From Pontibacter kalidii (GTDB lineage Bacteria; Bacteroidota; Bacteroidia; Cytophagales; Hymenobacteraceae): 64,000 bases of DNA. This document shows positions 1 through 64,000 of this stretch, in pieces. Position 1 is the stretch's first letter; each line of letters starts with the position of its first letter. The notes beneath the pieces were generated by a model. The model ran no database searches. It worked only from the letters and a program-made list of their open reading frames with translations, and was not told the origin of the DNA. The position numbers were made by a program, and so were the translations under genes. The stretch covers positions 2,978,501 through 3,042,500 of the forward strand of contig NZ_CP111079.1 in the NCBI RefSeq assembly GCF_026278245.1, in the 5' to 3' direction.

Positions 1-70
1 CAGAATTTATCATCCCCCACCCCCTTCCATGGGGATGAAGGCACTATCAGGAAGAACACCTGGTTCTGCC

Positions 71-190
71 GCAAGATTGTATCTTGTGGCCAAATTTGGG
101 GCCAGTTTTGAACTGGCGTAAACATTAATAAATCGTGCAAGTTAAAAACTAGCCTCTTTACCACCACAAGTTGAAAACTTGCGGTATATA
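71..190. repeat. Cluster of short palindromes
   Basis: Three small inverted repeats follow one another here: GCAAGAT/ATCTTGT near 73-89, GCCAGTT/AACTGGC near 102-118, and CAAGTT/AACTTG near 165-180. They resemble the small palindromic units of the large repeat islands described elsewhere in this window (for example the unit around 42852-42870). The stretch is probably the tail of another such island that begins outside the window. No gene is visible before 229. Confidence 0.5.
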
Positions 191-228
191 TACCTGGTTA
201 GTTAACCTACATCCAAATCACTGGTTTT

Positions 229-1461
229 GTGAACAAGAAAAAGATCTTCAACGACCCTGTTTACGGCTTTATCACGGCCCCGACAGAACTTATTTTTGAT
301 ATCATCGAGCATCCGTATTTCCAGCGCCTTCGCCGCGTAAAGCAGCTGGGGCTTACGGAGATGGTATATCCGGGTGCGCTCCATACCCGATTTCATCACG
401 CGTTGGGCGCCATGCACCTGATGGACACGGCGCTTCAGACCCTGCGCAGTAAAAATAACGAAATAAACGATACCGAATACGAGGCCTCGCTTATCGCCAT
501 CCTGCTGCACGACGTGGGGCACGGCCCTTTTTCGCATGCCCTGGAGACGGCTATCTTCAAAAATGTGCATCACGAGCACCTCTCGCTGCACATCATGCAC
601 CTGCTAAACGAGCACTTTGGCGGAAGATTGGCCTTAGCGATCGATATTTTCACAGATAATTACCACAGACGCTTTTTCCACCAGCTTGTATCGAGCCAGC
701 TGGACGTGGATCGTCTTGATTACCTGAACCGCGACAGCTTCTATACGGGCGTTTACGAAGGTAAGATCGGAGCCGACCGTATTATTAAGATGCTGGATGT
801 GGCTAACGACAAGCTGGTGGTGGAGGAAAAGGCCATCTATAGCATCGAGAACTTCCTGGTGAGCCGCCGCCTGATGTACTGGCAGGTGTACCTGCACAAG
901 ACCGTGATCAGTGCCGAGAATATGGTGCTGCGCGTGGTGCAGCGGGCCAGGGAGCTGATGCAGCGTGGCGTGGATGTGCCGGCAAGTCCCTGCCTCCGCT
1001 TCTTTCTCTCTTCTGACCTGACGATGGATGACTTTAAGCGCGACAAAAGTATATTGAGCCGCTTCGTTTCCCTCGACGACCACGACATCTGGAGCGGTAT
1101 AAAGGAGTGGGCTATGCACCCGGACTTTATACTTTCATACCTGGCCCAAAGTATACTGAGCCGCAAGCTTTTTAAAGTGTTCATCTCTGCCAAACCCATA
1201 GATCCGGACATGATGCTGGGTATAAAGGAGCTGGTGCAGGAGAAATATAACCTGGAGGAAGAGGAGGTAAAATACCTCATGATCTCAGGCAAGATTGGCA
1301 ACAACGCCTATGACGTGGAGGGCCAGACGATCGATATGCTCACCAAATCGGGCTATGTGGTAGACGTAGCCGAGGCCTCTGACCTGCCTAACATTCGCGC
1401 CCTGAGCTATAAGGTAGAGAAGCATTTTGTCTGTTATCCTAAGGAAGTGGCGCATTTGTAG
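229..1461 (+). CDS. HD-domain phosphohydrolase (dNTPase-like)
   Basis: A 410-residue HD-superfamily metal-dependent phosphohydrolase of the Bacteroidota type related to dGTPase/SAMHD1-like proteins; such enzymes hydrolyse (deoxy)nucleotides, but the substrate here is not known. The metal-binding residues are visible: His52 (LHTRFHHALG) and the HD doublet at 94-95 (LLHDVGHGPFSH), followed by DVDRLDYLNRD near residue 160, typical of the family. The start is a GTG at 229; no ATG lies in frame before residue 45, and the N-terminal sequence NKKKIFNDPVYGFI is characteristic of the family, so GTG is preferred. The gene stands alone: palindromes lie upstream and a long non-coding repeat island follows. 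AAGTATA-type heptamers occur inside it at about 1047, 1128 and 1147. Confidence 0.85.
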   Translation: MNKKKIFNDPVYGFITAPTELIFDIIEHPYFQRLRRVKQLGLTEMVYPGALHTRFHHALGAMHLMDTALQTLRSKNNEINDTEYEASLIAILLHDVGHGPFSHALETAIFKNVHHEHLSLHIMHLLNEHFGGRLALAIDIFTDNYHRRFFHQLVSSQLDVDRLDYLNRDSFYTGVYEGKIGADRIIKMLDVANDKLVVEEKAIYSIENFLVSRRLMYWQVYLHKTVISAENMVLRVVQRARELMQRGVDVPASPCLRFFLSSDLTMDDFKRDKSILSRFVSLDDHDIWSGIKEWAMHPDFILSYLAQSILSRKLFKVFISAKPIDPDMMLGIKELVQEKYNLEEEEVKYLMISGKIGNNAYDVEGQTIDMLTKSGYVVDVAEASDLPNIRALSYKVEKHFVCYPKEVAHL

Positions 1462-1550: not shown

Positions 1551-2215
1551 GCTATACCGGGTCCAACCACCCCTACCCCTCCCCCGGAACAAGTCCGGGA
1601 TCCAAGACTTGTCTAAGGAGGGGAGCCTGTCATTACTGCTGCTAAAGTATAGGTTTCATAGTTGCTGCCGTTGCGCGGACAAGTCACGACCTGTCCCTAC
1701 AAGTATGAAACCGCTCCTCCCGAGAGGAATTGTCACCCCACCCAACCCTCCCCTAAGAACAGGGGAGGGAGTTTGGTTCCTATTGTATAGCCGTGGCTAT
1801 CGAATGATTCCCAGTCCTTGGGTTGAGCGCCTTGTGAGATCCGGTGCCCTGAAAGGGCAGCGCCTTGGCGCAGGAGGGAACACAGCGCGATGCCCGAAGA
1901 CGAGCCCTCTCGGGCTTGAGAGCAGAAAGCCAGAAATGAAACAAGTTGGTTGTAAAGCCGTGGATGAACGGCAGCTAAAAAGGATAGCTTGGTTCAAGTT
2001 AAGACAAGCAGAGGCTAGAGGTAGGCACAAGCGGACGCCTGCGCCAGAGAAGTTTAAAACAAGGCTTTTCAAGCCAGTCGGGTTACAAACTCGACATCAT
2101 AGCAGGGCACGGGTTGCAAACCCGCGCCAGCGAAAGGTGCGAGTGAAGGATGGAAGTATAGCTGAAGTGTAAAAGTATAGCTCAAGTATAAAGTATAGCC
2201 AAAGCAAGTGTGGCT
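1551..2215 (+). repeat. Mosaic repeat island, copy A
   Basis: First of four colinear copies of a non-coding mosaic repeat (others at 6900-7655 inverted, 42096-42905 and 58580-59335). Shared modules in order: a C-rich/G-rich hairpin block; an imperfect palindrome of GGACAGGTCGCGACCTGTCC type at 1677-1696; CTCCCCTAAGAACAGGGGAG at about 1750; CAGTCCTTGGGTTGAGCGCC at 1812-1831; ACGAGCCCTCTCGGGCTT at 1900-1917; a GTTGTAAAGCCGTGGAT block at about 1948; and GGGTTGCAAACCCGCGCC near 2111. Several AAGTATA units follow. Open frames through this stretch have low-complexity, arginine/proline-rich translations, are not conserved in frame between copies and are judged spurious. The structure resembles REP/BIME-type elements mobilised in trans, but no transposase lies in the window. 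Confidence 0.8.
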
Positions 2216-3643: not shown

Positions 3644-3679
3644 ACCGGCACACTTAAAGGTATTTTAATTTCTCAGGAA

Positions 3680-3720
3680 TTTCCTTTCCCTGCCCTCTAA
3701 GGGAAGGCAGGGAAAGGATT
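3680..3720. terminator. Hairpin after lpxD
   Basis: A 13-bp perfect stem (TCCTTTCCCTGCC at 3682-3694 with its complement at 3706-3718) lies 38 bases after the lpxD stop. No T-run follows, so it may be an RNA-stabilising hairpin or a repeat unit and not a classical terminator. Confidence 0.45.
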
Positions 3721-5413: not shown

Positions 5414-6201
5414 ACCAGCCATTAGCATACGTACACCCAGAAGCCAAGATTGCGCATAACGTTGTTATTGAGCCGTTTGTAACAATCCACAAGAACGTGG
5501 AGATCGGCGAGGGAACCTGGATCGGATCCAACGCCGTGATCATGGAAGGAGCCCGCATCGGCAAGAACTGTAAGATTTTCCCGGGGGCCGTGGTATCCTC
5601 CATCCCGCAGGACCTTAAGTTTGCCGGCGAGGTAACTACCACCCACATCGGGGACAACACTGTTATCCGCGAGTACGTGACTGTGAGCCGCGGCACTATC
5701 GACAAGATGAAAACCGTTATCGGCAAGAACTGCCTGGTGATGGCCTACGCCCACGTGGCCCACGATTGTTTGATTGGGGATAACTGCATTATCGGTAATT
5801 CGGTGCAGATTGCCGGCCATGTGGAGGTGAATGACTACGCCATCATTAGCGCCGCTACGCTGGTGCACCAGTTCGCCAAGATCGGGGCCCACTCCTTTGT
5901 ATCCGGTGGTTCACTGGTGCTCAAGGACGTACCTCCGTTCGTGAAGGCTGCCCGTGAACCCCTCTCCTACGCTGGCATCAACTCCATCGGCATGCGCCGC
6001 AGGGGCTACGTGAGCGAGCAGATAAATGAGATACAGCACGTGTACCGTATCCTGTTCATGAACGGCCTGAACAACAGTCAGGCCCTGGATAAGATCGAGG
6101 TGGAACTCTCCCCAAGCAAGGAGCGCGACGAGATCATCAATTTTGTGCGCAACTCCGGCCGCGGTATCATTAAAGGCTATTTCGCAAAAGATGCAAGTTA
6201 A
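5410..6201 (+). CDS. lpxA: UDP-N-acetylglucosamine acyltransferase LpxA
   Basis: First step of lipid A synthesis: acylates the 3-OH of UDP-GlcNAc from 3-hydroxyacyl-ACP. Its 263 residues match the family length. Residues about 5-190 are a left-handed beta-helix of hexapeptide repeats, with the active-site region AYAHVAHDCLIG near residues 115-126; the C-terminal third is the helical domain (YVSEQINEIQHVYRILF). Its ATG overlaps the stop of lpxC-fabZ by four bases, and its own 3' end overlaps the following ABC ATPase start by 11 bases, so the three genes form one coupled operon. Confidence 0.96.
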   Translation: MNQPLAYVHPEAKIAHNVVIEPFVTIHKNVEIGEGTWIGSNAVIMEGARIGKNCKIFPGAVVSSIPQDLKFAGEVTTTHIGDNTVIREYVTVSRGTIDKMKTVIGKNCLVMAYAHVAHDCLIGDNCIIGNSVQIAGHVEVNDYAIISAATLVHQFAKIGAHSFVSGGSLVLKDVPPFVKAAREPLSYAGINSIGMRRRGYVSEQINEIQHVYRILFMNGLNNSQALDKIEVELSPSKERDEIINFVRNSGRGIIKGYFAKDAS

Positions 6202-6826
6202 CCTAACAGGCTTAGGTAAACGCTACAACTACGAGTGGATTTTCCGGAAACTGACTTATACGTTTGATTCAGGAACCTCTTATGCCATCCTAGGGCATAA
6301 CGGGTCCGGTAAATCCACTCTTCTTACGATTATGGCCGGGCATAACCTGGCAAGCGAGGGGCATCTGGCCTATACATCCGGCGGCAGAAGCATCCCGCAG
6401 GACGAAGTATACCGCCAGCTCACCCTCACGGCCCCCTACCTGGAGCTGGTGGAGGAGTTTACCCTCCTGGAGATGCTGGACTTCCATACCCGCTTCAAAC
6501 CGCTTCGCCACAAGCTCACGAACGCAGCGCTTATTGACCGCATGGGTCTGCAGCGCTCCAGGAATAAGTTTGTGAAGGACTTCTCGTCGGGCATGAAGCA
6601 GCGCCTGAAACTGGGGCTGGCCATCTACTCCAACAGCTCTCTCTTGCTTTTAGATGAGCCTACCACCAACCTTGACCAGGAGGGCGTGGCCTGGTACCAG
6701 GAGCACGTGGCCCAGAACAAGGAAGGTCGCCTGATCATTGTCGGCTCCAACATACAGCACGAGTATAGCTTCTGCGATCAGCAGCTGCGCATATCAGACT
6801 ATCACGTGGTGCCGAGGGCTCGTTGA
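6191..6826 (+). CDS. ABC transporter ATP-binding protein
   Basis: A 211-residue single nucleotide-binding domain: Walker A GHNGSGKST near residue 37, signature FSSGMKQR near 133, Walker B LLLLDEP near 153. I start it at the ATG at 6191, inside the end of lpxA; the frame stays open further upstream, but an earlier start would add 16 residues with no family resemblance. No membrane partner lies beside it. A stand-alone ABC ATPase following lpxA is, to my knowledge, a common arrangement in Bacteroidota, but its substrate is not established; a role in lipid or envelope traffic is only suggested by the operon. Repeat island B follows the stop. Confidence 0.85.
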   Translation: MQVNLTGLGKRYNYEWIFRKLTYTFDSGTSYAILGHNGSGKSTLLTIMAGHNLASEGHLAYTSGGRSIPQDEVYRQLTLTAPYLELVEEFTLLEMLDFHTRFKPLRHKLTNAALIDRMGLQRSRNKFVKDFSSGMKQRLKLGLAIYSNSSLLLLDEPTTNLDQEGVAWYQEHVAQNKEGRLIIVGSNIQHEYSFCDQQLRISDYHVVPRAR

Positions 6827-6899
6827 TCGTTGTTCGTTATTCGCAGTCTGATTTATACTTAAGCTATACTTTTAGCCTTATCTGCCGCAAGTCTTCAGC

Positions 6900-7655
6900 T
6901 TTGTACCCTGCAATGGTGTTGGGTTTGCTACCAGCCGGTTACCAGAGCCATACGTTTATACTTGCTGCTATACTTTATACATCGCTGCTATCCTTCTATC
7001 GCTGGCGCGGGTTTGCAACCCGTGTCCTGCTATGATGTCGGGTTTGTAACCCGACAGGCCTGATAAGCCATACTTATACCTGGGCTATACCTTATACTTT
7101 ACTGGCGCAAGCGTCCGCTTGTGCCTTTGCTGCTGCTAGCTGCAACTGGAACCAAGCTATCCTTTCTAGCTCCCGCTGATCCTCTAGTTCCTACAAACCT
7201 ACCGTTGCATTTCCTGCAGTGGTGCTCTCCAGCCCGAGAGGGCTCGTCTTCCCGCATCGCGCTGTGTTCCCTCCTTGCCTCGCTCTCGCTCGGCATGCCC
7301 TTTCAGGGCACCGGATCTCACAAGGCGCTCAACCCAAGGACTGGGAATCATTCGATAGCCACTTCCCTTGCTGTCATCTCGACCCACGGGAGAGATCTCA
7401 TTAGAATTCCCGATAGATCTCTCACAGCTACGCTGGCTCTCTTCGGCTCCCGCCTCAAGAGTACTCGAGATGATAGAGAGTGTGGCAAGTATAATTCCCC
7501 TCCTCGGAGGGGCTAGGGGTGGGTTGATACTTGTAGGGACAAGTCGCGACCTGTCCGCTTTCGGCAGCAACTATGAAACTTATACTTCAGCAGGAGCAGT
7601 CGCAGAACTCCCCTCCTTGGATAAGGAGGGGCAGGGGTGGTTGGAACCGGTATCA
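6900..7655 (-). repeat. Mosaic repeat island, copy B (inverted)
   Basis: Same module series as copy A but on the opposite strand: GGGTTTGCAACCCG palindrome at about 7010-7024, AGCCCGAGAGGGCTCGT at 7231-7247, the CCGGATCTCACAAGGCGCTC block at 7311-7330, a nested TCATCTCGA...CTCGAGATGA inverted repeat at about 7373-7473, and GGACAAGTCGCGACCTGTCC at 7537-7556. The end, reverse-complemented, matches the start of copy A (CCAACCACCCCT). Copies of TATACTT are frequent. Frames of 60-130 codons exist on both strands but show repeat-derived translations. The whole gap between the ABC ATPase and yebC (6827-7942) contains no credible gene. Confidence 0.8.
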
Positions 7656-9717: not shown

Positions 9718-10736
9718 TTCGGGGGTGGAGAACGGGTGGAGGGGGTATCAGCCTTAGCACACGCTACTTTGCCCTCCCGGATGCTGAAAACTCAGAAGTT
9801 GTTTTGAGGATCCGGGTGGGTAAATCGCATCCGCTTCCCCTCCGGGGGAAGAACAGTCTATACCAGAAGGCTTCTTTCAGAGTGACAGCCCTCCTTTATA
9901 CTTCAGGCTAATCCTGCCCGCCTACTTATAAGGAAGTCCTCTGGGCTGTAACAGAAGGCACAGCAAGTATAAAATTTATACTTTGGATGATGCTGAAGTA
10001 TAAAGGCAACAAGCAAGTATAACTTGAGGGCCTTTTTGCCATGAGAAGGCATTAGCCACTGCGCTACCCTCATAACTTGCGCCAAGGCAAGGCTTAACTA
10101 TACCCTAAAACCGTCTATAGTTCCCCTACATTACAGTGTTTACCCTGGCCCATCCAGGGAAGGGTGTATCGGCAGTTCCCACTTCTTAAAGTAGCAATGC
10201 TTATAGCTTGCCTCGCCGGGTCCAGCCTTGAGGTGGGGCAGCACGTACACCAGCATGACAACGTACTCTCTTATTTCAAATCCCACCTCTGCTTACCTTG
10301 TCTAAAGGCAGGCATTGCTTTAACAAAAGCTTCTTGCTACTGCCTGAGCCAAAAAGGCAGAAAATAAATATGCCTGAAAACGTGCTAATCCAGGAGCAGC
10401 AACAGCGGCCGGCGTGAAAGTTCATTAGCAACGCCAGCCCACTCTGTTTGCTCCCATCTGCGGCTTTTTTAACTGGCAACAGCTTTTAGGCCCACGATTA
10501 TCCAACTATATATTGATCTTTTACAAAAACAAATCGTAAAACCATACACTGAAAAGTTAGAATACACCCAGGATAAGAGGAGATGGATGATGCACACGAA
10601 GCGGTTTTCTAACCTTACCCCACGTTACCCTTTCTTACCAAATCCACAAGGATAACTATGCCCCATACCGCCCGGTACGACACATGTTTCTGCCCGGGCT
10701 CCTCAAGGCATGCCAGAAAGGGGCTATAACCCTGTA
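9718..10736. other. Long non-coding stretch, about 1 kb
   Basis: No credible gene: the longest frames (about 60-67 codons, for example 10164-10367 and 9903-10085) have no start context or family resemblance. Contents include a CTTCCCC/GGGGAAG hairpin at 9834-9851, four AAGTATA/TATACTT heptamers at 9966-10020 plus one at 9896, and a CCCTGG/CCAGGG hairpin near 10144-10160. It looks like decayed repeat material upstream of susC. Confidence 0.5.
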
Positions 10737-18035: not shown

Positions 18036-19295
18036 ATGAAAGCAGTTACTGCTGAGATTATCACCATCGGAGACGAGATCCTGTACGGCCAGATCGTAGA
18101 TACCAACTCCGCCTGGATGGGCACTGAACTCACCAAGATCGGGGTAAAGGTAAAGCAAATTACCTCTATCTCCGACAATGCCGGGCATATTGTGCAGGCA
18201 CTGGACGAGGCTAAAACCCGCGCCGATATCATCCTTATCACCGGCGGCCTGGGCCCCACCAAGGACGATTTGACCAAGCACGTGCTGGCCGACTACTTCC
18301 ATACGTCGCTCAGGCTGCACGAGCCCTCGCTGGCCGACATCGCCGCGCTTTTTAAGGTGCGGGGCATCGAGCTGACGGAGCTGAACCGCCAGCAGGCGTT
18401 TCTGCCGGAAAGCTGCATGCCGGTCCGCAACGCGCTGGGAACGGCCCCGGGCATGTGGTTTGAGCAGGACGGGAAGGTGTTTGTGTCGATGCCGGGGGTA
18501 CCGTTTGAGATGAAGCGCATGATGACAGACATCGTGCTGCCGCAGCTCAAATCATACTTTAAAACACCGCACATCATTCATAAGGTCATACAGACCGTGG
18601 GCCTGGCCGAATCCATACTTGCCGAGCGCCTGGAGGACTGGGAAACCAGCCTGCCCGGGCACCTGAAGCTGGCCTACCTGCCGCACCTGGGCGGGGTGCG
18701 GCTGCGCCTGACAGGCCAAGGGATGGACGAGGCTATTTTAAAGCAGGAACTGCAGCAGGAAGTGGACAAGCTGCCGCCCCTCATCGGCAAGTATATTTTC
18801 GCCTACGGCGAGGTGCCGTTGGAGGAGGCCACCGGGCAGTTGCTAAAAGAGCGCGGCCTGACGGTGGCCACGGCCGAGAGCTGCACGGGCGGCTTTGTGG
18901 CCCACAAACTTACGAGTATAGCCGGCAGTTCGGCCTACTTCATGGGCGGCGTGATCGCCTACCACAACGAGGTGAAAATACGGGAGCTACGCATAAAACC
19001 TGAAACCCTGCAACAGCATGGCGCCGTAAGCGAGGCTACCGTGCGGGCCATGGCCGAGAACGTACGCCTGCAGTTTAGCACAGATATCGGCCTTGCCACC
19101 AGCGGCATTGCCGGGCCGGATGGCGGCACGCCAGACAAACCGGTGGGCACGATCTGGATCGCCTATGCCGACAAGTATAAAACGGAAGCTAAGCTACTCA
19201 ATTACAACAAGAACAGGCTGCTCAATATAGAATACACTACCATGGCTGTGCTGAACCTGCTGCGCCAAAGTTTGGAGCCAACGGTTGAGGAATAG
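18036..19295 (+). CDS. cinA: CinA family protein
   Basis: A 419-residue two-domain CinA: an N-terminal MoCF/molybdopterin-binding-like (COG1058) domain (EIITIGDEILYGQIVDTNS at residues 5-23; ITGGLGPTKDDLT near 68) with ADP-ribose pyrophosphatase-type activity in characterised members, and a C-terminal nicotinamide-mononucleotide deamidase domain from about residue 255 (TVATAESCTGGFVAHKLTS; GIAGPDGGTPDKPVGT near 350). Role: NAD salvage/pyridine nucleotide recycling; the competence name is historical. A separate protein with only the second domain is encoded at 61015-61506. Confidence 0.93.
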   Translation: MKAVTAEIITIGDEILYGQIVDTNSAWMGTELTKIGVKVKQITSISDNAGHIVQALDEAKTRADIILITGGLGPTKDDLTKHVLADYFHTSLRLHEPSLADIAALFKVRGIELTELNRQQAFLPESCMPVRNALGTAPGMWFEQDGKVFVSMPGVPFEMKRMMTDIVLPQLKSYFKTPHIIHKVIQTVGLAESILAERLEDWETSLPGHLKLAYLPHLGGVRLRLTGQGMDEAILKQELQQEVDKLPPLIGKYIFAYGEVPLEEATGQLLKERGLTVATAESCTGGFVAHKLTSIAGSSAYFMGGVIAYHNEVKIRELRIKPETLQQHGAVSEATVRAMAENVRLQFSTDIGLATSGIAGPDGGTPDKPVGTIWIAYADKYKTEAKLLNYNKNRLLNIEYTTMAVLNLLRQSLEPTVEE

Positions 19296-19420: not shown

Positions 19421-20779
19421 ATGGCACTTGTAGAAATGGTTATGCCCAAGATGGGCGAGAGTATCATGGAAGGTACCGTTCTCAAATGGCTCAAAAGCGT
19501 GGGTGACACCATTGAGCAGGACGAATCGGTACTGGAGGTAGCTACAGATAAAGTGGACACAGAGGTACCTGCCCTGCAAAGCGGCGTGCTGAAGGAGATT
19601 TTGGTACAGGAGGGTGATGTGGTAGCCGTTGGCGCTCCGATCGCTGTCATCGCTACGGATGGTGAGGACACCGGTACTCCTGCTGCCCCTGCTACTACCG
19701 AGGCTCCCGCCCCTGCCGCCGCTGCACCTGAGGCCGCGCCACAGCAAGCTGCCGCTTCCCCTGCCGGCGCTGTAGCCAGGCTAGACCAGCCTGCCGCTGG
19801 CCGTTTCTACTCGCCGCTGGTGCTCAACATTGCCCGCGAAGAAGGCATTTCGATGCAGGAACTGGAGTACATTCCGGGTACCGGCAAGGAAGGCCGCGTG
19901 TCCAAGAAAGATATTCTGGAGTATGTAGAGAGCCGTAAAAACGCTCCTGCCCAGGCTGCCGCTCCGCAGGCACAGGCTCCGGCTGCTCCACAAGTACAGC
20001 TACAGACAGCCCCTGCCGCTCAGCCGCAGGCTGCTGCCCCTCAGGTGAAACCGGCTGCTTCTTACGGTGGCAACACAGAGCTGATCGAGATGGACCGCAT
20101 GCGCAAGATGATTGCCGACCGCATGGTAGACAGCAAGCGCATCTCTCCGCACGTTACCTCTTTCGTGGAGGCCGACGTGACCAACCTCGTGAACTGGAGA
20201 AACAAGTGGAAGAATGAGTATAAGAAGCGCGAGGGCGAGAACCTGACCTTCACGCCGATCTTCATCGACGCCATTGCCAAGGCCATCAAAGACTTCCCGA
20301 TGATCAACGTGTCGGTGGACGGCAGCACCATCATCCGCCATAAGGACATCAACATCGGCATGGCTGTGGCTCTGCCTAGCGGTAACCTGATCGTGCCCAA
20401 CATCAAGAACGCCGACCAACTGAACCTGAACGGGCTGACCAAGAAGGTGAACGACCTGGCCAACCGTGGCCGCATGAACAAACTGACGCCGGACGACCTG
20501 GCAGGTGGCACCTACACCGTGTCTAACGTGGGCTCTTTCGGCAACGTGATGGGCACGCCGATCATCATGCAGCCGCAGGTGGCCATCATGGCGGTGGGCG
20601 CGATCAAGAAAAAGCCAGCCGTGATCGAGACGCCGGAAGGTGATCTGATCGGAATCCGCCACTTCATGTTCCTGTCGCACTCTTACGACCACCGCGTGGT
20701 GGATGGCTCGCTGGGCGGCATGTTCGTGCGCCGTGTGGCCGATTACCTGGAGCAGTTCGACGTGAACCAGACCATTTAA
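19421..20779 (+). CDS. 2-oxoacid dehydrogenase E2 acyltransferase
   Basis: Dihydrolipoamide acyltransferase core of a 2-oxoacid dehydrogenase complex, 452 residues. Domain order: lipoyl domain 1-76 with lipoyl-lysine Lys44 (ATDKVDTEV); Ala/Pro-rich linker 85-125; peripheral-subunit-binding domain about 128-165 (YSPLVLNIAREEGISMQELE); second Ala/Pro/Gln linker; catalytic domain from about 220 with His424 in DHRVVDG. The lipoyl end resembles branched-chain or 2-oxoglutarate E2 as much as pyruvate E2, so the substrate is left open. No E1 or E3 gene lies beside it. Followed by a strong terminator. Confidence 0.9.
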   Translation: MALVEMVMPKMGESIMEGTVLKWLKSVGDTIEQDESVLEVATDKVDTEVPALQSGVLKEILVQEGDVVAVGAPIAVIATDGEDTGTPAAPATTEAPAPAAAAPEAAPQQAAASPAGAVARLDQPAAGRFYSPLVLNIAREEGISMQELEYIPGTGKEGRVSKKDILEYVESRKNAPAQAAAPQAQAPAAPQVQLQTAPAAQPQAAAPQVKPAASYGGNTELIEMDRMRKMIADRMVDSKRISPHVTSFVEADVTNLVNWRNKWKNEYKKREGENLTFTPIFIDAIAKAIKDFPMINVSVDGSTIIRHKDINIGMAVALPSGNLIVPNIKNADQLNLNGLTKKVNDLANRGRMNKLTPDDLAGGTYTVSNVGSFGNVMGTPIIMQPQVAIMAVGAIKKKPAVIETPEGDLIGIRHFMFLSHSYDHRVVDGSLGGMFVRRVADYLEQFDVNQTI

Positions 20780-26533: not shown

Positions 26534-29500
26534 ATGAGGCTCTTATCTTTAACCATCAGCTTTGTGATGGTGCTTGGCAGCCTGTGTGCCCAGGCAGAAA
26601 CCTACTATGTCAGCCGTGCCGGCAACGATAGTTACTCCGGTGTTTCAAAAACAAGTGCCTGGGCAAGTATAGATAAAGTAAACGACACCCATTTTGCTCC
26701 GGGAGATACCATCCTGTTTGAGGGAGAAGAGATTTTTGAGGGGAGCCTGGGCTTTGGGGAAGAAGTTAAAGGAACCCCGCAGAGCCCGATCGTACTACGA
26801 TCCTATGGCACCGGAAGAGCCGTGATCAGGAGCGGCACCCAGAAAGGCTTCTGGCTTTACAATACCTCTGGCTTTAAAATAGAGAACCTGGTGTTTGAGG
26901 GAGCCGGCAGAACAGTCAATACAACTGCCGGTGTGGAAATTTACATGGATTTGCTCAACACCATGCTACCTTATATTGCGATCCATAACGTGGAGGTTTA
27001 CGGCTATCGCGAGGCCGGCGTCAGCATTGGCAGCTGGGACACAGACCAGGGCTTTCGCGATGTCTCCATCACCAATACATCCTCCCATGATAACGGCGAT
27101 GCAGGCATAGCTGTTTGGGCGCAGGATAGGCTCCTGGCGCACCAGAATGTGTATGTAGGACACACCAAAGCTTATAACAACGCCGGCATCTCCACCAAAA
27201 CACACTCCCACAGCGGTAACGGCATTGTAATAGGCGGTGTTGACGGGGGAGTGATCGAGTTCTGCGAGGCCTATAACAATGGGTGGCTGAACGCCTGGAA
27301 GAATGGTGGCCCTGTAGGTATCTGGTGTTATACCAGCAACAATGTTATCATCCAGTACAACGAGTCGCACCACAACAAAACGGGAACCACGAAGGACGGC
27401 GGCGGATTTGACATCGACGGAGGCAGTACGAACTGCATACTGCAGTATAATTACTCCCATGATAACGAGGGGGCGGGCTATCTGTTAGCGCAGTTTGATA
27501 AGGCCAAGGAGATGAAGGACCTGACCATCCGCTACAATATCAGTGAGAACGATGGCAGAAAGAACGGGTATGGCGCTATCCACCTCTGGTCCTCCGGCTC
27601 AAACGGTGGCATCCAAAATGCCCAGATCTACAACAACACCATTTACCTGTCGCCGGCAACAAGCGGGGCACCCAAGGCAGTATGGGTGCAGGCTGGTGGT
27701 GCAACGGCTGCAACTTTCCGAAACAACCTGTTCGTGACAACTGGCGGCGTAAGGTTGGTGCAAGTGGACTCTAATGTTACGGCTAACGTGCGCTTTGAAG
27801 GCAATAATTACTGGTCGTCTGGTGCTACGGCTACTTTTAACTGGGGAGGTACAGTGCACAAATCACTTTCCGCTTGGCGCACGGCTACCTCACAAGAATC
27901 GCGTAACGGCATAGCACTCGGGTTCGCCCTGGACCCGAAGCTGAAAGGCCCCGGCAAAAGTATAACCATCTCCAACCCGCAGTTCCTGTACACATTGCAG
28001 GGTTATGAACTGGACATTACCTCTGCCCTGGTTGGCAAAGGGCTTAACCTGCAGGCTGACTTCGGTCTAAACACCGGAAAAACAGACTTCTGGGGCAACA
28101 GCATCACCCAACGCACCGATCTCTGCATAGGAGCCCATCAGGTCACGGACAATAGTAAAGCCTGTCTCTACGGAGGGCCGCAACCACTTTCGTTCGGCCA
28201 TGCAGCAGGCGGGATTTACGTTGGCCCTGGGGTAACAGAAGAAGGTTTTTTTACTCCTCAGGCAGCGGGTGTTGGCAACCACGCATTGGTTTATACTTAT
28301 ACAGACGCACAGGGACAGCCGCAGGCCGCGCACCATACCGTGCAGGTTATTGACACCGACGCAACCCAATGGACAGGAGCCAGCGGCACCACCGATTGGT
28401 TCGACGGCCAGAACTGGAGCACCTGTGTACCTACGCCACACATCAACACCAGTATCCCATCCAACGCACCAGCTTTCCCAAGTATAAAAACAGGGCAACG
28501 CGGCCTTGTGCATGATTTAGACGCTGTTGGCCTCCTTACCATTGAACAGGATGCCGCTCTGGAGCTACACGGTACTTTAGAAACGGCCAACCTCCGTATC
28601 CACCCAAACTCCAGCATCATTTTTAATAGCGAGGCGCCCCAAACCATACCCGCAGGCAATTACGGCAGTTTGCTGTTGCAGGGCGGGGGCTCCAGAAAAC
28701 TGGCTGGCTCCGTTACCATAAGCAATCACCTCGACTTAAAACAGGGCAAGCTGCAATTGGGCGACAACAACCTATTGATAGAAGAGAGTGGCAGCATACT
28801 GAATTACAATGCTGGCAGCTACATTATAACAAACGGCACAGGCCTGCTAACTTATGCAGGAATGGCAGCAGGGCTCATGAAGGTGTTCCCGGTTGGCACC
28901 TCCAGTGGCTACGCGCCCGTCTCGCTCCGTAACGATGGTGTAGTAGATAATTTCAGTATCCGGGTGGAGGAAAGCGCTGCAAGTACAGGGGACACGACTG
29001 ATCATGAGATCACGATCAGGAAGATATGGCAGATAGAGGAGGAAACGAAGGGTGGTTCTGATGTAACGATGATCCTGCAGTGGGCTACTGATGATGAGCC
29101 AGAGACGTTTAACCGCGCCCAAAGCTATGTAAGCCACTACGAGAACGACGAGTGGCAGGTGATGGAAAGTAGCTTAGGCAAGGTAACACAGGGCCCCTCC
29201 GCCGGCTCGCACCGTATCAGCCTGAGCGGGGTTAACTCCTTCTCCCCTTTTACTGTAGCCAGCAGCCAGTCAATGCCAGCGCCTCTGCCTGTTTCGCTGG
29301 CCAAGTTTACAGTAGCGAAACAGGGCATGGAGGTGCTGCTGCAGTGGGAAACGGCCTCGGAGCAAAACAACCATGGCTTTGACGTGGAGGTATCTGAGGA
29401 TGGCAGCTACTTCAGGGCGCTTGGGTTTGTAAAGAGCAAGTCACCCAACTCAGTTCAGCGGCAACTTTATACTTACCATGATAAGGAGCCCGGTAAGTAT

Positions 29501-29842: not shown

Positions 29843-29877
29843 TTATTCGTTACGAAAGAGTGCCAGGGGCAACTACA

Positions 29878-30998: not shown

Positions 30999-31007
30999 GG
31001 AGAAGGT

Positions 31008-32297: not shown

Positions 32298-32301
32298 CAG
32301 C

Positions 32302-33576: not shown

Positions 33577-33585
33577 CTAGCCCTG

Positions 33586-36215: not shown

Positions 36216-36227
36216 CAATACGTGTGT

Positions 36228-37142: not shown

Positions 37143-37223
37143 GATTTATAGGTTAACTAACCCTGCAGGCCTGGCAAACGCATTCGGGCACGAGATTTTT
37201 TCATAACTATAACCTGCCTTGAT

Positions 37224-38255
37224 ATGGAACGCATTCCTACTTCTCCTCCAACGATAGCGCCGCTTCCCCCCTCCCCTAACCGCCCGCTATGGTCTGTCAT
37301 GATTCCGGCCTATAATTGTACCCTGTTCCTGGTAGAAACCCTTGAAAGCGTACTAGCTCAAAACATTCCGGCCAGTCACATGCAGATCGAGGTGGTGGAC
37401 GATGCCAGCACCGATGCCGACGTGGAGAAAATCGTGCGCGAAGTGGGAAAAGGCAGGGTGGGGTATTACAGACAGCCGCAGAACGTAGGCAGCCTGCGTA
37501 ACTTCGAAACTTGCATCAACAGGGCCCGAGGCTACCTGGTGCACCTGCTGCATGGCGATGATAGGGTGCGGGCAGGATACTATACAGCCATGGAGCAGCT
37601 TTTCAGGGATTTCCCTGAAGCCGGAGCCGCTTTTTGCAGGCATCATACAATTGATGAACAGAATAACATTCTTAATCCACATGTAAAAGACGATGCACCT
37701 TGGCGTGGTCTGCAGGAGAACTGGCTCTTGCGCATCGGTGAAAAACAGCACATCCAGTATGCCACCATCACAGTTAAAAGGGAGGTATATGAAAAACTGG
37801 GCTCCTTTTTCGGGGTGACCTATGGAGAGGATTGGGAAATGTGGGTGCGCATTGCCAAGCATTATCCAGTTGCCTTTACTTCGCAGATACTGGCCGAGTA
37901 CAGAAAGCATTCCAGCTCTATTTCCGGCACAAAGATCATGACGGGGGAATACATCGAGGACATCGCTTATCTGCTCCAACTCATTCAACAGCACCTGCCA
38001 CCAGAACACCGGAAGCAGGTACTGATGAAAGCACAGAAAAACTTTTCGAATTATGGTTTGAATATTGCCCAGGCGCTTTGGGAAAAAACAGGGAACAGAA
38101 AATATGTAGAGGCAAACATTAGAAAGGCATTAAGCATGTACCTTGACGCCAGGCTCTGTTTTAAAGCAGCAAGACTGATCGCAAAAATTGCGCTTCATGA
38201 ATTAAAGCTCAGGCCACATACGCCCGATGATAGCAGGTACAGAAGGTACATATAG
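37224..38255 (+). CDS. Glycosyltransferase family 2
   Basis: A 343-residue GT2 with WSVMIPAYNCTLFLVETLES near 23-42, VVDDASTDADVEKI near 59, LLHGDDRVR near 111 and YGEDWEMWVRIAKHYP near 200. A C-terminal helical tail (after about 265) is basic. Last plus-strand gene of the glycan locus; it ends two bases before the convergent gene on the other strand, with no terminator between them. Confidence 0.84.
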   Translation: MERIPTSPPTIAPLPPSPNRPLWSVMIPAYNCTLFLVETLESVLAQNIPASHMQIEVVDDASTDADVEKIVREVGKGRVGYYRQPQNVGSLRNFETCINRARGYLVHLLHGDDRVRAGYYTAMEQLFRDFPEAGAAFCRHHTIDEQNNILNPHVKDDAPWRGLQENWLLRIGEKQHIQYATITVKREVYEKLGSFFGVTYGEDWEMWVRIAKHYPVAFTSQILAEYRKHSSSISGTKIMTGEYIEDIAYLLQLIQQHLPPEHRKQVLMKAQKNFSNYGLNIAQALWEKTGNRKYVEANIRKALSMYLDARLCFKAARLIAKIALHELKLRPHTPDDSRYRRYI

Positions 38256-38257
38256 GC

Positions 38258-39262
38258 TTAATAGTGCCGCTTCAGCAACTCCAGCACCTCTGCATCACTC
38301 TTCGCGTGGTAAACCTCTGCGCCAGATAGAGCTGGAAAAATAGTTTTAAACTCGTTGTAGCGGTGCTCATGCCCGCGTTTAGACAGAATGATGTTTTTGC
38401 CACCGAAATAACTGGCCAGAGCTGCCGTGCCGCCGTGCACTGACAGGAAGCGATCACAATTAGCGTAAAGCATCAACTGAAAGTGGTTGTAGTTATTCAC
38501 ATGCGTCCTATTTGCCTGGTACAGGTCTTCTGCCAGCACTACCTCAGGGTAATTTTTCCTGATGAAATCCGCCTCTTTCAATTCCAGGATATCGCTGTTG
38601 TCCATCACAATATACTTGGCGCCAGGGCGATTATACACGATTTGGTACGTATCGCTGTACCTGTCCAGTATCTCACCCAGCATGGCAATGCTGAAATAGT
38701 TGATAGGCCCTTTCCCCCATTCCGTGTTATACTTGTTGGCTATAACCAGGAGCGGTTTACTAAAGATAAATAGGTCGTTCTTATAATGCTGCTTTAAGGG
38801 TACCTGCGCCCATTTAGAGAAGGAAACGGTGGGGCAGTGGTACATATTGGGTATTTCGTAGTTATTACCTATATACCTGTCTACCCTTGTCTCATACCTC
38901 TCCTCGTGCTGCTCGCTGAAGAAGTATAGCTCCTTGGTGAATTTGGAGGAGATGGTTCTGCCCAGCGTGCCGTTCAGATGATGCCAGTAAGCAAAAGGCA
39001 GCACGAAGGTGAGTTCCTGCTGAAACTCCTCTCTGTAGGCTATCTCCTTATACTTGCTTTTCAGCACATAGTCCTGAATACAATACTTTGTTTGCCTCAT
39101 CCGGGCATAGCTGTTCTTGAAGAGAAAGAACTCAGGTGTGCCATAGCTAAAGGAGCCTTCCAGTCTCTTTTTTACCCTTTGGATAAACGGGGTTTTATTC
39201 CGTCCGGCTGAGGTAATATATCGCTGCCCACGGTAGCTTTCAACTCTGTTAATAACCTCCAT
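38258..39262 (-). CDS. Unknown protein, glycosyltransferase-like C-terminus
   Basis: A 334-residue protein I cannot assign. The C-terminal third has ANCDRFLSVHGGTAALASYF followed by NIILSKRGHEHRYNEF, reminiscent of the nucleotide-binding half of GT-B glycosyltransferases of the GT61/fucosyltransferase-like type, where a conserved HG(A/G)G motif occurs. The N-terminal half is basic with many aromatics. No signal or membrane segment. ATG at 39262 is preferred over the TTG at 39280. It converges on the glycan operon and may be an accessory transferase. Unlike that operon it carries TATACTT/AAGTATA heptamers, as resident DNA does. Confidence 0.6.
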   Translation of the reverse strand: MEVINRVESYRGQRYITSAGRNKTPFIQRVKKRLEGSFSYGTPEFFLFKNSYARMRQTKYCIQDYVLKSKYKEIAYREEFQQELTFVLPFAYWHHLNGTLGRTISSKFTKELYFFSEQHEERYETRVDRYIGNNYEIPNMYHCPTVSFSKWAQVPLKQHYKNDLFIFSKPLLVIANKYNTEWGKGPINYFSIAMLGEILDRYSDTYQIVYNRPGAKYIVMDNSDILELKEADFIRKNYPEVVLAEDLYQANRTHVNNYNHFQLMLYANCDRFLSVHGGTAALASYFGGKNIILSKRGHEHRYNEFKTIFPALSGAEVYHAKSDAEVLELLKRHY

Positions 39263-39535: not shown

Positions 39536-40063
39536 CTAATCTAAATCACGATCACCTCTTTTCAGTTCCTCCACTGAGCGCATCACCTTGTCTTTCAGGC
39601 CGTTTTTATACTTCTCCAGTTTATCTGCCACGGCCGGGTTGTTGGTACCAATAATTTCGGCAGCAAGGATGCCAGCGTTCAGAGCGCCATCCAGGGCTAC
39701 GGTAGCCACCGGTATGCCACCCGGCATCTGAAGTATACTTAGCACCGAGTCCCAGCCATCGATAGAGTTAGAGGATTTAACCGGCACCCCGATAACAGGC
39801 AGTGTGGTGATAGAGGCCACCATGCCCGGCAGGTGCGCAGCTCCGCCCGCTCCGGCAATAATTACCTTCAGGCCGCGCTTGCGGGCGCTCTCGGCGTATT
39901 CGAACATGCGGTGCGGCGTGCGGTGCGCAGATACAATGGTCAGCTCAAACGGTACGCCCAGCGTTTCCAGGATCTCGGCGGCGGCATCCATTACCTTCAG
40001 GTCAGACTGGCTGCCCATGATAATGCCCACTAGCGGTTGTGTATTTCTCGTTTCTTCAGCCAT
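39536..40063 (-). CDS. purE: N5-CAIR mutase PurE
   Basis: Purine synthesis: class I PurE converts N5-carboxyaminoimidazole ribonucleotide to CAIR in the cytoplasm. The 175 residues show [14 protein letters not shown] (near 12-25), [13 protein letters not shown] near 45 with the catalytic histidine, [13 protein letters not shown] near 69 and [20 protein letters not shown] near 96. The gene starts 2 bases after purK, which makes the upstream substrate, so the two form an operon. Confidence 0.96.
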
Positions 40064-42095: not shown

Positions 42096-42905
42096 GCCGG
42101 GGCAAACCACCCCTCTTCTCCTTGTCTTTGTCGAGGGCCCCTTCTTGGCGAAGGAGGGGAGCCTGTAGTCGCTTTAGCTAAAGTATAAGTTTCATAGTTG
42201 CTGGCATAGAGCGGACAGGTCGCGGCCTGTCCCTACAAGTATAAACCCAGTCCTGGCCCCGCTTCACCCCTCCCCAACCCTCCCCTAAGAACAGGGAAGA
42301 GAGCTGTACTTGCCACACTCTCTGTCATCTCGAGCAGAGCGAGAGATCTATCGGGAATTCTAAAGAGATCTCTCCCCAAGGTCGAGATGACAAATAGCCG
42401 GGGCTATCGAACTGAACCCAGTCCTTGGGTTGAGCGCCTTGTGAGATCCGGCGCTCAACTTGTTGAGCAGCCCGAGGCACGAGGGCAGGAGGGAACACAG
42501 CGCGATGCCCTTATCGAGGGCCCCTACCCCCAGGACGAGGCCTCCCGGCCTAGAGGGAGCCAAAGTATGAAATGCAACGATTGGTATGTAAGTCTGGAGG
42601 ATGAACGGCAGCTAGCAAGTATAGCTTGTGTCCAGTTGCAAACAGCAGCGGCTAAGCGAAGGCACAAGTGGACTCTTGCCTCAGAGAAGTATGAAGTATA
42701 GCCCAAGTATAAAGTATGGCTCTGTGAGCCAGTCGGGTTACAAACCCAACGAAAAAAAAGACACGGGCTGCAAGCCCGCGCCAGCAGAAGTATGGGCAGA
42801 GTACAGATTAAGTATAAAGTACAGCCAAAGCAAATATGGCTCTGCAAGCTAATCAAGTTGCAAACTTGACACCATAGTAGGACACAAGTCTGAAGGCTTG
42901 CGCCA
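42096..42905 (+). repeat. Mosaic repeat island, copy C
   Basis: Third copy of the island, same orientation as A and D. Modules: GGACAGGTCGCGGCCTGTCC at 42213-42232; CTCCCCTAAGAACAGG near 42283; a nested 70-base inverted repeat at 42323-42392; GTCCTTGGGTTGAGCGCC at 42421-42438; a variant of the GAGCCC hairpin (ACGAGGCCTCCCGGCC) near 42535; the GATGAACGGCAGCTAGC block near 42599; GGGCTGCAAGCCCGCGCC near 42765-42782; and AAGTTGCAAACTTG near 42854-42867. Compensatory changes are seen: GGGTTGCAAACCC in A and D reads GGGCTGCAAGCCC here, so pairing is kept. Frames of about 100 codons inside are not conserved. Confidence 0.8.
42323..42392. repeat. Nested 70-base inverted repeat
   Basis: TGTCATCTCGA at 42323-42333 pairs with TCGAGATGACA at 42382-42392, and inner AGAGATC units also pair. 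A related unit lies in copy B at about 7372-7474 with extra sequence inserted. Copies A and D lack it, suggesting an independently moving palindromic unit. Similar TCATCTCGA...GAGATCT repeats are, to my memory, widespread in Bacteroidota genomes. Confidence 0.65.
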
Positions 42906-43099
42906 TTTAAAGCAAAAAGTATAAAACCTCATTTACCTAAAGAATATATAGATTTCACTACTCTACAGACAAAACCCAATGGTTCGTCGAGAAGAAACCT
43001 CTATCAGTTTACCACCTTTGCCCGTACACCTCCTTTTAAGTAACTTAGCATGTATATATATGCCTAACCGTATCTGACACATTACCTAAACCCAAAAAC
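42906..43099. other. Spacer before M16 peptidase gene
   Basis: AT-rich spacer after island C, with one AAGTATA at about 42918. I see no gene and no promoter that I can call confidently. Confidence 0.4.
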
Positions 43100-59395: not shown

Positions 59396-59407
59396 CATGA
59401 TTTAGTG

Positions 59408-59489
59408 TGCGCAAGAAAGGACTCGAACCTTCACACCTTGCGGAACTGCCGCCTGAAGACAGCGCGTCTACCAATTTCGCCACTTGCGC
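59408..59489 (-). tRNA. tRNA-Leu (CAG)
   Basis: An 82-base gene on the minus strand. Acceptor stem GCGCAAG (5' end at 59489) pairs with CTTGCGC; D arm with GGTAGA; anticodon stem CTGTC/GGCAG encloses the loop TTCAGGC, giving anticodon CAG; a class II variable arm follows and a GAAGG/CCTTT T-arm with TTCGAGT. The discriminator is A and CCA is not encoded, as is common in Bacteroidota. Reads CUG leucine codons. A terminator follows at once. Confidence 0.92.
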
Positions 59490-62203: not shown

Positions 62204-62350
62204 AGTTTAGGAGTTAGAAAATTAAAAAGTTAGAAAGTTAGAGTTGGGGAGTTGTAGAGGCGTAATAGATTGCTCCTTAGAGGTAGATATAGATCGAGGT
62301 ACCTAGCAACGCATAACTGATAATTGTTAACTGATAACTGTTAACTGATT
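62181..62350 (+). repeat. Degenerate short tandem repeats
   Basis: Two low-complexity tracts. The first (62181-62250) repeats AGGAGTTAGAAAATT-like units (GTTAG every 7-10 bases) and overlaps the end of the methyltransferase gene. The second (62313-62350) repeats AACTGATAACTGTT-like units three times. Both resemble intergenic degenerate tandem repeats seen in Bacteroidota. Confidence 0.6.
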
Positions 62351-62411
62351 AGAGTTGCTCTCCCATTTGTCAATCCTTATATTTATACTTTCAACTATAC
62401 TGATCTAACCG

Positions 62412-64000
62412 ATGAAACCTACATTATACGGCCTGCTGGGCCTGGCGCTGGGGCTTATGGCACAGCCGGTACTAGCGCAGCAGCAGGTAAGGTATGAGCT
62501 CTCCTTCCCAAACGCAGCACACCACGAGGCCGAGATAAACGTCTCCTTTTCCGATATCCGGACCGATACCCTGAAAGTGTTAATGCCGCGTACCTCGCCG
62601 GGTCGCTATGCCATCCATGAGTTTGCCAAGAATGTGTACAACGTGCGCGCTACCAACGCGCAGGGGCAGCCCCTGCAGCTCCTGCGCCTGAACACCAGCG
62701 AGTGGGCTGTGCTGGGTCACGACGGTAAGGCCTCCATCAGCTATACCTTGTTTGCCGACCATGCCGACGGCACCTATGCCGGCGTGGACGAAACGCACGC
62801 CCACCTGAACGCGCCAGCCAGCCTGATGTATGCGCGCGGTTTTGAGCAAGCGCCGGCCTACGTTACGTTTCACACCCCCGAGGGCAGCAACTGGAAAGTA
62901 GCCACGCAGCTGCGGCAGGAACAGGGCAACACCTACTTCGCTCCCAATTTTCAGTACCTGATGGACAGCCCCACCGAGCTCAGCGACTTTGATTTTGCCG
63001 AGTGGACGGTAAGCGACGGCGGCAAGCCCAAAACGATACAGGTGGCACTACACCACCAGGGCACCAAGGAACAGTTTCAGGAGTACGTAGATCACACCAA
63101 GGCCATTGTGGCCGAGCAGCAGGCGGTGTTCGGAACGTTACCCGATTTCGACTTTGGCCGCTACACCTTTATTGGCTGCTACATGCCGCAGGCTGTGGGC
63201 GATGGTATGGAGCACCGCAACTCTACCATCCTGACCAGCTCCCGGCCACTGGCCGCTGCCATGGGGCCGCTGCTCAACACCGTCTCGCATGAGTTTTTCC
63301 ATGCCTGGAACGTGGAGCGCATCCGTCCTGCATCGCTGGAGCCGTTCAATTTCCAGGAGGCCAACATGAGCGAGGCGCTGTGGTTGGCCGAAGGCTTCAC
63401 GAGCTACTACGGCGACCTGACCATGACCCGCAGCGGCATCTATGACCTAAAAAAGTATGCGTCTGACCTGGCCGGGGATCTCAATTACGTGCTGCTCACA
63501 CCGGGGCGGCAGTACCACAGCCTGGTGGAGATGAGCCAGCAGGCACCGTTCGTGGACGCCGCACGCTCCGTGGACCCTGTAAACCGCCACAATACCTTTA
63601 TCTCATACTACACCTACGGCAGTATGCTGGGCCTGGCTCTGGACATGACCCTGCGCCAGCAGTACAACAAAACGCTGGATGACTTTATGCAGGCCCTCTG
63701 GCAAAAGTATGGAACACCGGAAAAGCCTTACACGATGGCCGACCTGCAGCAAACGCTGGCGGAGGTAACCGGCGATGCGGCCTTTGCGAAGCGGTTCTTT
63801 GAGCAAAGCGTGTTTGGCAGCGAGCTGCCGGACTATGCCCCGCTGCTGGCTCAGGCCGGGCTGGAGCTGCGCAAGGCCAAACCGGGCGAAGCGACTTTAG
63901 GCCTGCTGTACCTGGACTACAAGGACGGCAAGGCAACCATCGCGAATGGCACTTACGTCACCTCGGAGGCTTACAAGGCAGGCCTGGAACGGGGGGATGT
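62412..64000 (+). CDS. M61 glycyl aminopeptidase family protein (partial)
   Basis: The gene runs off the window after 529 codons. Signal peptide about 1-23 (LLGLALGLMAQPVLAQ). N-terminal beta domain (ELSFPNAAHHEAEI; PRTSPGRYAIHEFAKN) typical of M61; zinc motif HEFFH at residues 293-297, with EGFTSYYGD near 332 carrying the third ligand glutamate. A PDZ domain is expected near the C-terminus, and the last codons (LGLLYLDYKDG, then GLERGDV) fit its beginning. Secreted or periplasmic aminopeptidase acting on N-terminal small residues. Family members in Bacteroidota are usually about 600 residues. Confidence 0.88.
   Translation, partial: MKPTLYGLLGLALGLMAQPVLAQQQVRYELSFPNAAHHEAEINVSFSDIRTDTLKVLMPRTSPGRYAIHEFAKNVYNVRATNAQGQPLQLLRLNTSEWAVLGHDGKASISYTLFADHADGTYAGVDETHAHLNAPASLMYARGFEQAPAYVTFHTPEGSNWKVATQLRQEQGNTYFAPNFQYLMDSPTELSDFDFAEWTVSDGGKPKTIQVALHHQGTKEQFQEYVDHTKAIVAEQQAVFGTLPDFDFGRYTFIGCYMPQAVGDGMEHRNSTILTSSRPLAAAMGPLLNTVSHEFFHAWNVERIRPASLEPFNFQEANMSEALWLAEGFTSYYGDLTMTRSGIYDLKKYASDLAGDLNYVLLTPGRQYHSLVEMSQQAPFVDAARSVDPVNRHNTFISYYTYGSMLGLALDMTLRQQYNKTLDDFMQALWQKYGTPEKPYTMADLQQTLAEVTGDAAFAKRFFEQSVFGSELPDYAPLLAQAGLELRKAKPGEATLGLLYLDYKDGKATIANGTYVTSEAYKAGLERGD

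Follow-up and report, generated by a model that had tools for sequence, protein, structure and literature searches.

AAGTATA as a probable DNA uptake sequence of Pontibacter, with dialects that follow the phylogeny of the genus

Introduction

Why would a bacterial chromosome carry one short asymmetric word thousands of times, within genes as well as between them? The question is raised by a stretch of 64,000 nucleotides of Pontibacter kalidii (contig NZ_CP111079.1, positions 2,978,501 to 3,042,500; hereafter the window). In this window, an initial annotation, made from the letters alone, noticed an over-representation of the heptamer AAGTATA and its complement TATACTT, and listed as possible causes an uptake-type signal, the target of a binding protein or methylase, and a spreading mini-repeat. 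The analysis described below indicates that AAGTATA is probably a DNA uptake sequence (DUS) of Pontibacter maintained by natural transformation, a reading based on sequence comparison and on analogy with the dialects of neisserial DUS. Such a tag would let the cell recognise the DNA of its own kind during uptake from outside. Outside Neisseriaceae and Pasteurellaceae, no established case of sequence-specific DNA uptake is known. Genomes and loci are cited below by G and L numbers.

Results

Abundance and form of the motif

The enrichment proposed in the initial annotation is real. The window contains 116 copies of AAGTATA (72 on the plus strand and 44 on the minus strand), or one per 552 bp, and the earlier hand counts were exact, with 28 sites up to position 10,843 and 14 between 15.5 and 22.5 kb. 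Dinucleotide shuffling of the window yielded a mean of 4.55 copies and a maximum of 11 over 100 shuffles; the Markov expectations of orders 0 to 4 were 5.3, 4.5, 7.5, 21 and 57 copies. The whole genome (5.05 Mb, two contigs) contains 4,451 + 4,410 copies, 8,861 altogether (1.8 per kb, both strands), against 170 + 186, or 356, for the reversed word.

It had been suggested that a count close to a fifth-order Markov expectation would speak against the enrichment. Such a model does expect 100.9 copies in the window, near the 116 observed, but it was rejected as a sole test because it is self-fulfilling, the hexamers AAGTAT and AGTATA being pieces of the motif. With the motif copies masked, an order-5 model over 284 kb of the same chromosome expects 50 copies against 508 observed, so the literal agreement does not count as a refutation.

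The related word AAGTATG is also frequent, as had been surmised (47 copies in the window against 8.2 expected by an order-2 Markov model), and the top 9-letter word of the window, AAGTATAAA, occurs 50 times against 0.6 expected. The 508 sites define an extended form, aAAGTATAaa, with T avoided directly before and after the core. Sequence information ends at about 10 bp, and the conserved unit is 7–10 bp with no longer flank. The spreading mini-repeat, understood as a dispersed element, is disfavoured by this short unit and by the variable reading frame of the copies; in places the motif does form tandem arrays.

Placement in genes and between them

Genes were delimited with a simple purpose-made caller (231 genes, 82% coding). 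The motif has a density of 1.13 per kb inside genes and 4.53 per kb between genes, where it is four times denser. All six coding frame and orientation classes lie 3.5- to 41-fold above a within-gene synonymous-codon shuffle, and therefore neither codon bias nor a single codon pair explains the motif. The statement that it occurs in coding DNA of all frames, in intergenic DNA and on both strands thus holds.

The copies are clustered at short range, 47 of 496 gaps being no longer than 20 bp against 18 expected, and the close copies lie mostly on the same strand. Among the 508 sites, inverted pairs within 60 bp show no excess over same-strand pairs, for which reason a role of the motif as a terminator was rejected; eight overlapping pairs form the palindrome AAGTATACTT.

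Tandem arrays of the local dialect word or a near variant, as if expanded by slippage, were seen at L076 ~3661–3720 (G010, period 6), at L029 ~941–1058 (G013, period 5) and at L215 ~19933–19995 (Botryobacter, period 8). In L098 (G039, another family of the order), GAGTACTC and neighbouring words form a dense repeat array with about 109 places in 20 kb (218 on both strands). Two Rufibacter species carry a tandem 7-bp repeat near comEC at similar locus positions (L227:7213–7283 and L236:7144–7228).

Dialects across the genus

A ComEC search attributed the genome to Pontibacter, the closest named relative being P. flavimaris (85% identity); Botryobacter ruber falls within the group. Three words were counted in 50 whole genomes of the genus, and k-mer scans covered 43 of them, in samples mostly of 20–60 kb and in larger ones for G069, G036 and G027. 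Genomes G059, G061, G062, G063, G070, G071 and G023 were classed by the whole-genome counts of the three words alone. In the first k-mer scan, the sequences of G014 and G023 were too short, those of G010 and G027 comprised ~5 kb, and that of G023 was masked; the scanned contigs of G010 (25 kb) lacked this genome's own word.

AAGTATA is the abundant word in 20 of the 50 genomes (4,114–11,818 copies), AGGTATA in 12 (5,748–9,303 copies) and AACTATA in seven (6,094–13,168 copies); counts of a word typically differ 5- to 20-fold between branches. Three AACTATA genomes, G026, G032 and G065, carry AAGTATA in abundance as well and may be called bilingual, and the AAGTATA genome G071 also contains 3,531 copies of AACTATA. 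Three further genomes have other candidate words: GGTATAA in G036 (58 places against 8.4), TATATAAA in G069 (55 collapsed places against 7.3) and, tentatively, AGGTAGA in Botryobacter G027 (20 collapsed places against 4.3). The remaining eight (G002, G007, G023, G024, G025, G033, G064 and G068) have little or no tag, with weak excesses in G002 and G007.

Of the named species, P. flavimaris belongs to the AAGTATA dialect and P. roseus to the AGGTATA dialect. The dialects are one base apart. According to single-substitution spectra, the first three bases of the word are set by the dialect, TAT is almost fixed, A is preferred over G in the next position, and any base except T may follow.

AAGTATA has no strong excess in 150 genomes from five other genera of the family Hymenobacteraceae, with ratios to control of at most about 2.5, and no comparable excess in 22 genomes from other families of the order. 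In small samples outside the genus (parts of eight order genomes, eight of nine having been scanned, eight Rufibacter loci and one Sabulibacter locus), no xxxTATA word stood out.

This narrow distribution bears on a Chi-like explanation, in which the motif would be a recombination hot-spot read by AddAB/RecBCD-type enzymes and would change along with their recognition pocket. Chi motifs, too, are short, asymmetric, species-specific and over-represented, and rare on foreign DNA. However, the motif is confined to one genus, with 150 genomes of relatives in the family showing no strong excess, although the enzymes themselves are regarded as widespread (they were not searched for here). Its 14-fold excess over an order-2 Markov model also speaks against such a role. 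Chi, moreover, is strand-skewed, whereas the 284 kb contain 259 leading-strand and 249 lagging-strand copies (strand counts summed by the sign of the local GC skew). Chi-like and KOPS-like roles are disfavoured because of this lack of strand bias, and the Chi-like explanation is considered very unlikely.

Phylogeny and conservation within dialects

A tree of ComEC, based on this one gene from 49 genomes (G009 left out) and with several weakly supported forks, places the AACTATA and AGGTATA species in two separate clades, while AAGTATA fills most of the remainder. The AAGTATA genome G006 is sister to the AGGTATA clade (weak support), G071 lies on a deep branch adjoining the AACTATA clade, and tag-poor species are found at about five places. 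The dialects thus follow ComEC phylogeny around a fixed TAT core. This layout makes AAGTATA the probable ancestral word, the dialect having switched at least twice and the tag having been lost several times.

Conservation was examined in a codon alignment of comEC, in which the counts of conservation and conversion pool non-independent pairs, G009, G036, G069 and G021 are left out and some rows are trimmed at the start. A dialect copy is intact in a partner of the same dialect in 952 of 2,808 cases for AAGTATA (34%), 662 of 1,000 for AGGTATA (66%) and 144 of 343 for AACTATA (42%), against a background of 11%, 19% and 11%, respectively, for any heptamer in the same frames. Dialect copies are therefore retained three to four times better than other heptamers, and only within their dialect: across dialects, or toward a motif-poor group of nine rows that includes Botryobacter (G027, tentatively of another dialect) and the weakly tagged G007, 2.7–7.3% are kept against a background of 3.3–6.2%. 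The comparison of AAGTATA with AACTATA rows lies above background (7.3% against 4.2%), as would be expected if some AACTATA species still use AAGTATA. The force that retains the copies must then be specific to the species using the word, which argues against protein constraint and against a general mutational bias.

The partner's own dialect word stands at the same place in 4–7% of cases, against ~0.2% by chance, or roughly 20–30 times chance. Direct site-by-site conversion between dialects was consequently rejected as the main route, and re-tagging appears to proceed mostly by turnover.

Core, accessory and mobile DNA

The motif is enriched in core genes and scarce on DNA that is mobile or was acquired recently. 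Contig C2, the second of the P. kalidii genome, is a conjugative plasmid with relaxase, TraG, TraM, coupling-protein and ArdC genes; its 73.8 kb contain 20 copies (0.27 per kb). Five copies were found in the 40 kb examined of the second contig of G001, a possible plasmid, and a 20-kb contig piece of G010 has two copies of that genome's own word, against 1.9 per kb genome-wide.

Core and rare genes were distinguished by being shared or unshared among 20 comEC or 26 comM loci. Genes common to at least ten loci contain 190 copies in the comEC neighbourhoods and 257 in the comM neighbourhoods, against 26.6 and 41.3 by synonymous shuffle; for genes present in one or two loci, the figures are 83 against 22.7 and 11 against 8.9. 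The ratio of observed to shuffled copies is accordingly 6–7 in widely shared genes and 1.2–3.7 in rarely shared ones.

These data can be set against a selfish or mutational process, such as a transposon target, slippage or biased repair, that would generate the motif without benefit to the cell. The existence of tandem arrays, the fourfold density between genes and the short-range clustering are in its favour. A mutational bias, however, would enrich plasmids and acquired genes as well; such a process would not keep copies three to four times better than other heptamers only within the dialect, and the copies lack a longer repeat unit around them. This explanation is rated least probable of all, marginally below the Chi-like one.

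Motif copies and gaps in the window

Selected copies, clusters and motif-free stretches of the window are as follows.

1047–1053, plus strand: AAGTATA copy in the HD-domain gene at 229–1461 (Pfam PF19276; PF01966 under cut-off)
1128–1134, minus strand: AAGTATA copy in the same HD-domain gene at 229–1461, antisense
2154–2197, plus strand: four closely spaced copies, all on this strand, in the last part of the open reading frame 1501–2172 and just past its end
6405–6411, plus strand: AAGTATA copy in the open reading frame 6143–6826, cited in the initial annotation
6854–6975, minus strand: cluster of four copies
9897–10021, both orientations: cluster of five copies outside the listed open reading frames of at least 120 aa
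10844–15708: motif-free 4.9 kb with a SusC/SusD pair
18789–18795, plus strand: AAGTATA copy in the open reading frame 18036–19295
32517–38610: motif-free 6.1 kb in an exporter/glycosyltransferase (surface polysaccharide) cluster
39731–39740: overlapping head-to-head pair AAGTATACTT, a palindrome
42617–42923, plus strand: five same-strand copies outside the listed open reading frames of at least 120 aa
53863–53872: overlapping pair AAGTATACTT outside the listed open reading frames of at least 120 aa
59008–59349, plus strand: eight same-strand copies adjoining a tRNA-Leu gene (59407–59489)

The sites previously cited at 1047 and 6405 are correctly placed; the one given as 18796 is actually at 18789. 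The exporter/glycosyltransferase cluster as a whole (29475–38610) contains a single AAGTATA, at 32510, and is possibly acquired DNA. A 3.0-kb stretch with the dnaK gene is also motif-free; acquired DNA is therefore not the sole cause of gaps.

Transformation genes and their lesions

ComEC and DprA families are present over cut-off in all 50 genomes; ComM/YifB is matched in all 50 and over cut-off in 48. Some of the genes are broken: comEC in G009, G018 (a frameshift) and G021, dprA in G009 and G021, and comM in six genomes (G001, G009, G012, G020, G021 and G031). In G021, all three contain stops (L124, L168 and L169), and the aligned neighbours of comM and comEC are free of stops; in G009, all three have stops or splits (L119 and L187).

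Inserts of ~6–17 kb interrupt comM in four genomes of the AAGTATA dialect: G001 (L182), G012 (L178), G020 (L179) and G031 (two inserts, L180/L181). At all four loci there are tyrosine recombinases that belong to a single sequence cluster (two checked by Pfam). The inserts are found at two recurrent places, ~215 and ~350 of the TIGR00368 profile, and comM seems to be a repeated island target in Pontibacter. Densities computed for G012, G020 and G001 are, respectively, 0.59, 0.34 and 0.10 per kb within the inserts and 1.62, 0.73 and 1.49 per kb elsewhere at the locus; the sequenced stretches of G031 contain many copies. Insertions in comM that inhibit transformation are known in other genera (PMC4774983). 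A second DprA-family match, besides the usual one, occurs in each of G026 and G033.

The five lesioned AAGTATA species have the five lowest densities of the 20 (0.82–1.46 against 1.47–2.53 per kb; one-sided Mann–Whitney P 6e-5), in a comparison that is post hoc, uses rounded genome sizes and is uncorrected for phylogeny. The tag and transformation are linked statistically, not one to one.

This density pattern is left unexplained by a mark like the cyanobacterial HIP1, which an orphan methylase or a nucleoid protein would read and which would be selected for chromosome upkeep independently of uptake, the dialects mirroring changes in the protein. HIP1 itself is an earlier example of a short motif at high density, and the absence of strand bias and the presence of copies in genes and gaps fit such a mark. 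On the other hand, AAGTATA is asymmetric and not palindromic, and methylases of PF01555, to which type III and CcrM-like enzymes belong, are absent in 19 of the 50 genomes, among them the motif-rich G014, G022, G030, G060, G061, G062, G066 and G018 (other methylase families were not searched). The earlier suggestion of a binding-protein or methylase target is somewhat weakened on its methylase side by this absence in the one family searched, and a HIP1-like mark is regarded as improbable, if less so than the other two alternatives.

Search for a reader protein

Candidates for a protein that would read the motif were sought near the transformation genes and by family. DUF5689 (PF18942), prompted by Riemerella RS04920, is present in 22 of the 50 genomes and was dropped; of three loci inspected by eye, two adjoin a SusD-like gene and one lies within a long nuclease-like protein. 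Five conserved neighbours of comEC (19–20 of 20 loci) look general by eye; they also occur in motif-poor species, with one absent in G068, and were set aside. Outer-membrane-like proteins beside comM were rejected as well, at least one such gene being found in all 26 loci examined, motif-poor species included.

Three small outer-membrane-like genes beside comM (L183:10379–12737 in G000 and L169:10782–13076 in G021) show 56, 61 and 77% identity between G000 and G021, where their neighbours mostly show 82–93%.

Discussion

Taken as an uptake signal, the first option of the initial annotation, the motif gains support from the dialects, from conservation limited to the dialect, from its shortage on mobile DNA and from its low density in the lesioned AAGTATA species. 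We infer that the motif is read during uptake and that a receptor exists. A putative reader in the uptake path would favour fragments with xxxTATR(V), distinguishing the first three bases differently from branch to branch (AAG, AGG, AAC and probably others) while keeping TAT. Tagged fragments would be taken up and recombined via a ComEC–DprA–ComM route, so that tagged alleles would replace untagged ones. The tag would accumulate where coding constraint permits, be retained in core genes and be scarce on DNA arriving otherwise. Drift of the reader's preference would lead to slow re-tagging of the whole genome, that is, to a new dialect, and the loss of transformation or of specificity would let the tags decay.

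A fuller version of this account is favoured by a narrower margin. It holds that Pontibacter may have an independently evolved uptake-sequence system, with no earlier case known from Bacteroidota within the reach of the searches, working with no type IV pilus secretin and with a putative sequence-specific reader. Its specificity would have switched two or more times, probably at least four, within one genus, the bilingual G026, G032 and G065 standing between dialects, and the dialects would act as barriers to gene exchange between lineages. In open-access full text, no description of the heptamer or of an uptake motif in the genus or phylum was found among the matches listed, in line with the initial annotation, which knew of none; nor was, among the same matches, a Bacteroidota case lacking a pilus secretin and having several dialects and bilingual species.

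Several observations weigh against the uptake reading. The PilQ-type secretin (PF00263), which belongs to the apparatus by which DUS are used in other bacteria, has no match in the 50 genomes (0/50, against 6/14 controls), and the pilus route of the known uptake sequences is therefore not evident. The putative reader is not obviously encoded beside comEC or comM. No report of natural transformation in Pontibacter was found among the open-access matches listed, the single paper that mentions both being concerned with LexA. The density relation also has exceptions: the lesioned G031 is barely below its relative G019 (1.46 against 1.49 per kb), the lesioned G009 (AGGTATA, 2.02 per kb) and G018 (AACTATA, 2.91 per kb) are tag-rich, and the permutation P value weakens to 0.017 when the test is stratified over all dialects. 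Conversely, eight tag-poor genomes keep open comEC, dprA and comM; loss of the tag is therefore not the same as loss of these genes. A decay footprint sought in G021 was not discriminating: the one-mismatch excess per perfect copy, 0.64, lies above the pooled value of 0.45, but single intact species reach 0.66. The second contig of G020, a possible plasmid, has 24 copies in 40 of its 204 kb (0.6 per kb), against a genome mean of 0.82. The comEC gene, although tag-dense (4.2 per kb against 1.4 for all coding DNA), was rejected as a specially tagged gene, its synonymous-shuffle ratio of 8–9 being typical. As an inference, very recent lesions would not show in density yet, and competence may outlast specificity.

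If the uptake reading is correct, a Bacteroidota genus in which clades have their own dialects, some species are bilingual and the tag has been lost repeatedly would show that self-tagging can evolve more than once and on the basis of different machinery. The genus would then offer a natural series for the joint change of a receptor and thousands of sites. The motif would also point to the outer-membrane DNA-uptake machinery of Bacteroidota, and tagged DNA could possibly serve as a genetic tool.

Comparison with known systems

The uptake sequences of Neisseriaceae have dialects around a fixed core, a bias to the core genome and conservation (Frye et al. 2013, PMC3630211; Treangen et al. 2008, PMC2397512). 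The Pontibacter motif resembles these DUS in being short, asymmetric and present in great number, in having dialects that follow phylogeny around a fixed core (CTG in Neisseriaceae, TAT in Pontibacter), in being conserved beyond its flanking sequence, and in its concentration in the core genome, with few or no copies in DNA of recent acquisition (PMC3630211, PMC2397512). It differs in belonging to another phylum, in its unrelated sequence, in its length (7–10 bp against 10–12) and in showing no surplus of inverted pairs, an arrangement that serves as a terminator in Neisseria (PMC2397512). Pontibacter, unlike Neisseria, has no PilQ-type secretin (0/50), and a ComP/type IV pilus route is not evident (ComP itself was not searched for). 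The role of neisserial DUS in uptake is established, that of the Pontibacter tag putative.

The uptake signal sequences (USS) of Pasteurellaceae are likewise dense and linked to competence, with more than one type in the family; they have flanking A/T tracts, whereas the information in the Pontibacter motif ends at about 10 bp. Cyanobacterial HIP1 is also a very dense short motif, but it is an 8-bp palindrome, unlike the asymmetric AAGTATA, and it is not known to have dialects of the Pontibacter sort.

Within Bacteroidota, a transposon screen in Riemerella identified ComEC, DprA, ComF and RecA together with uncharacterised proteins predicted to lie in the envelope (PMC8459023). R. columbina (PMC7965970) is distant from Pontibacter within the phylum, and its k-mer table differs in having only A/T-rich words, a role for which the authors of that study left open. 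The two nevertheless share a phylum, and competition assays with R. columbina showed a preference for its own DNA (PMC7965970). A Pontibacter system lacking a secretin fits both the competence gene set of Riemerella and this own-DNA preference of R. columbina, a link that is drawn here.

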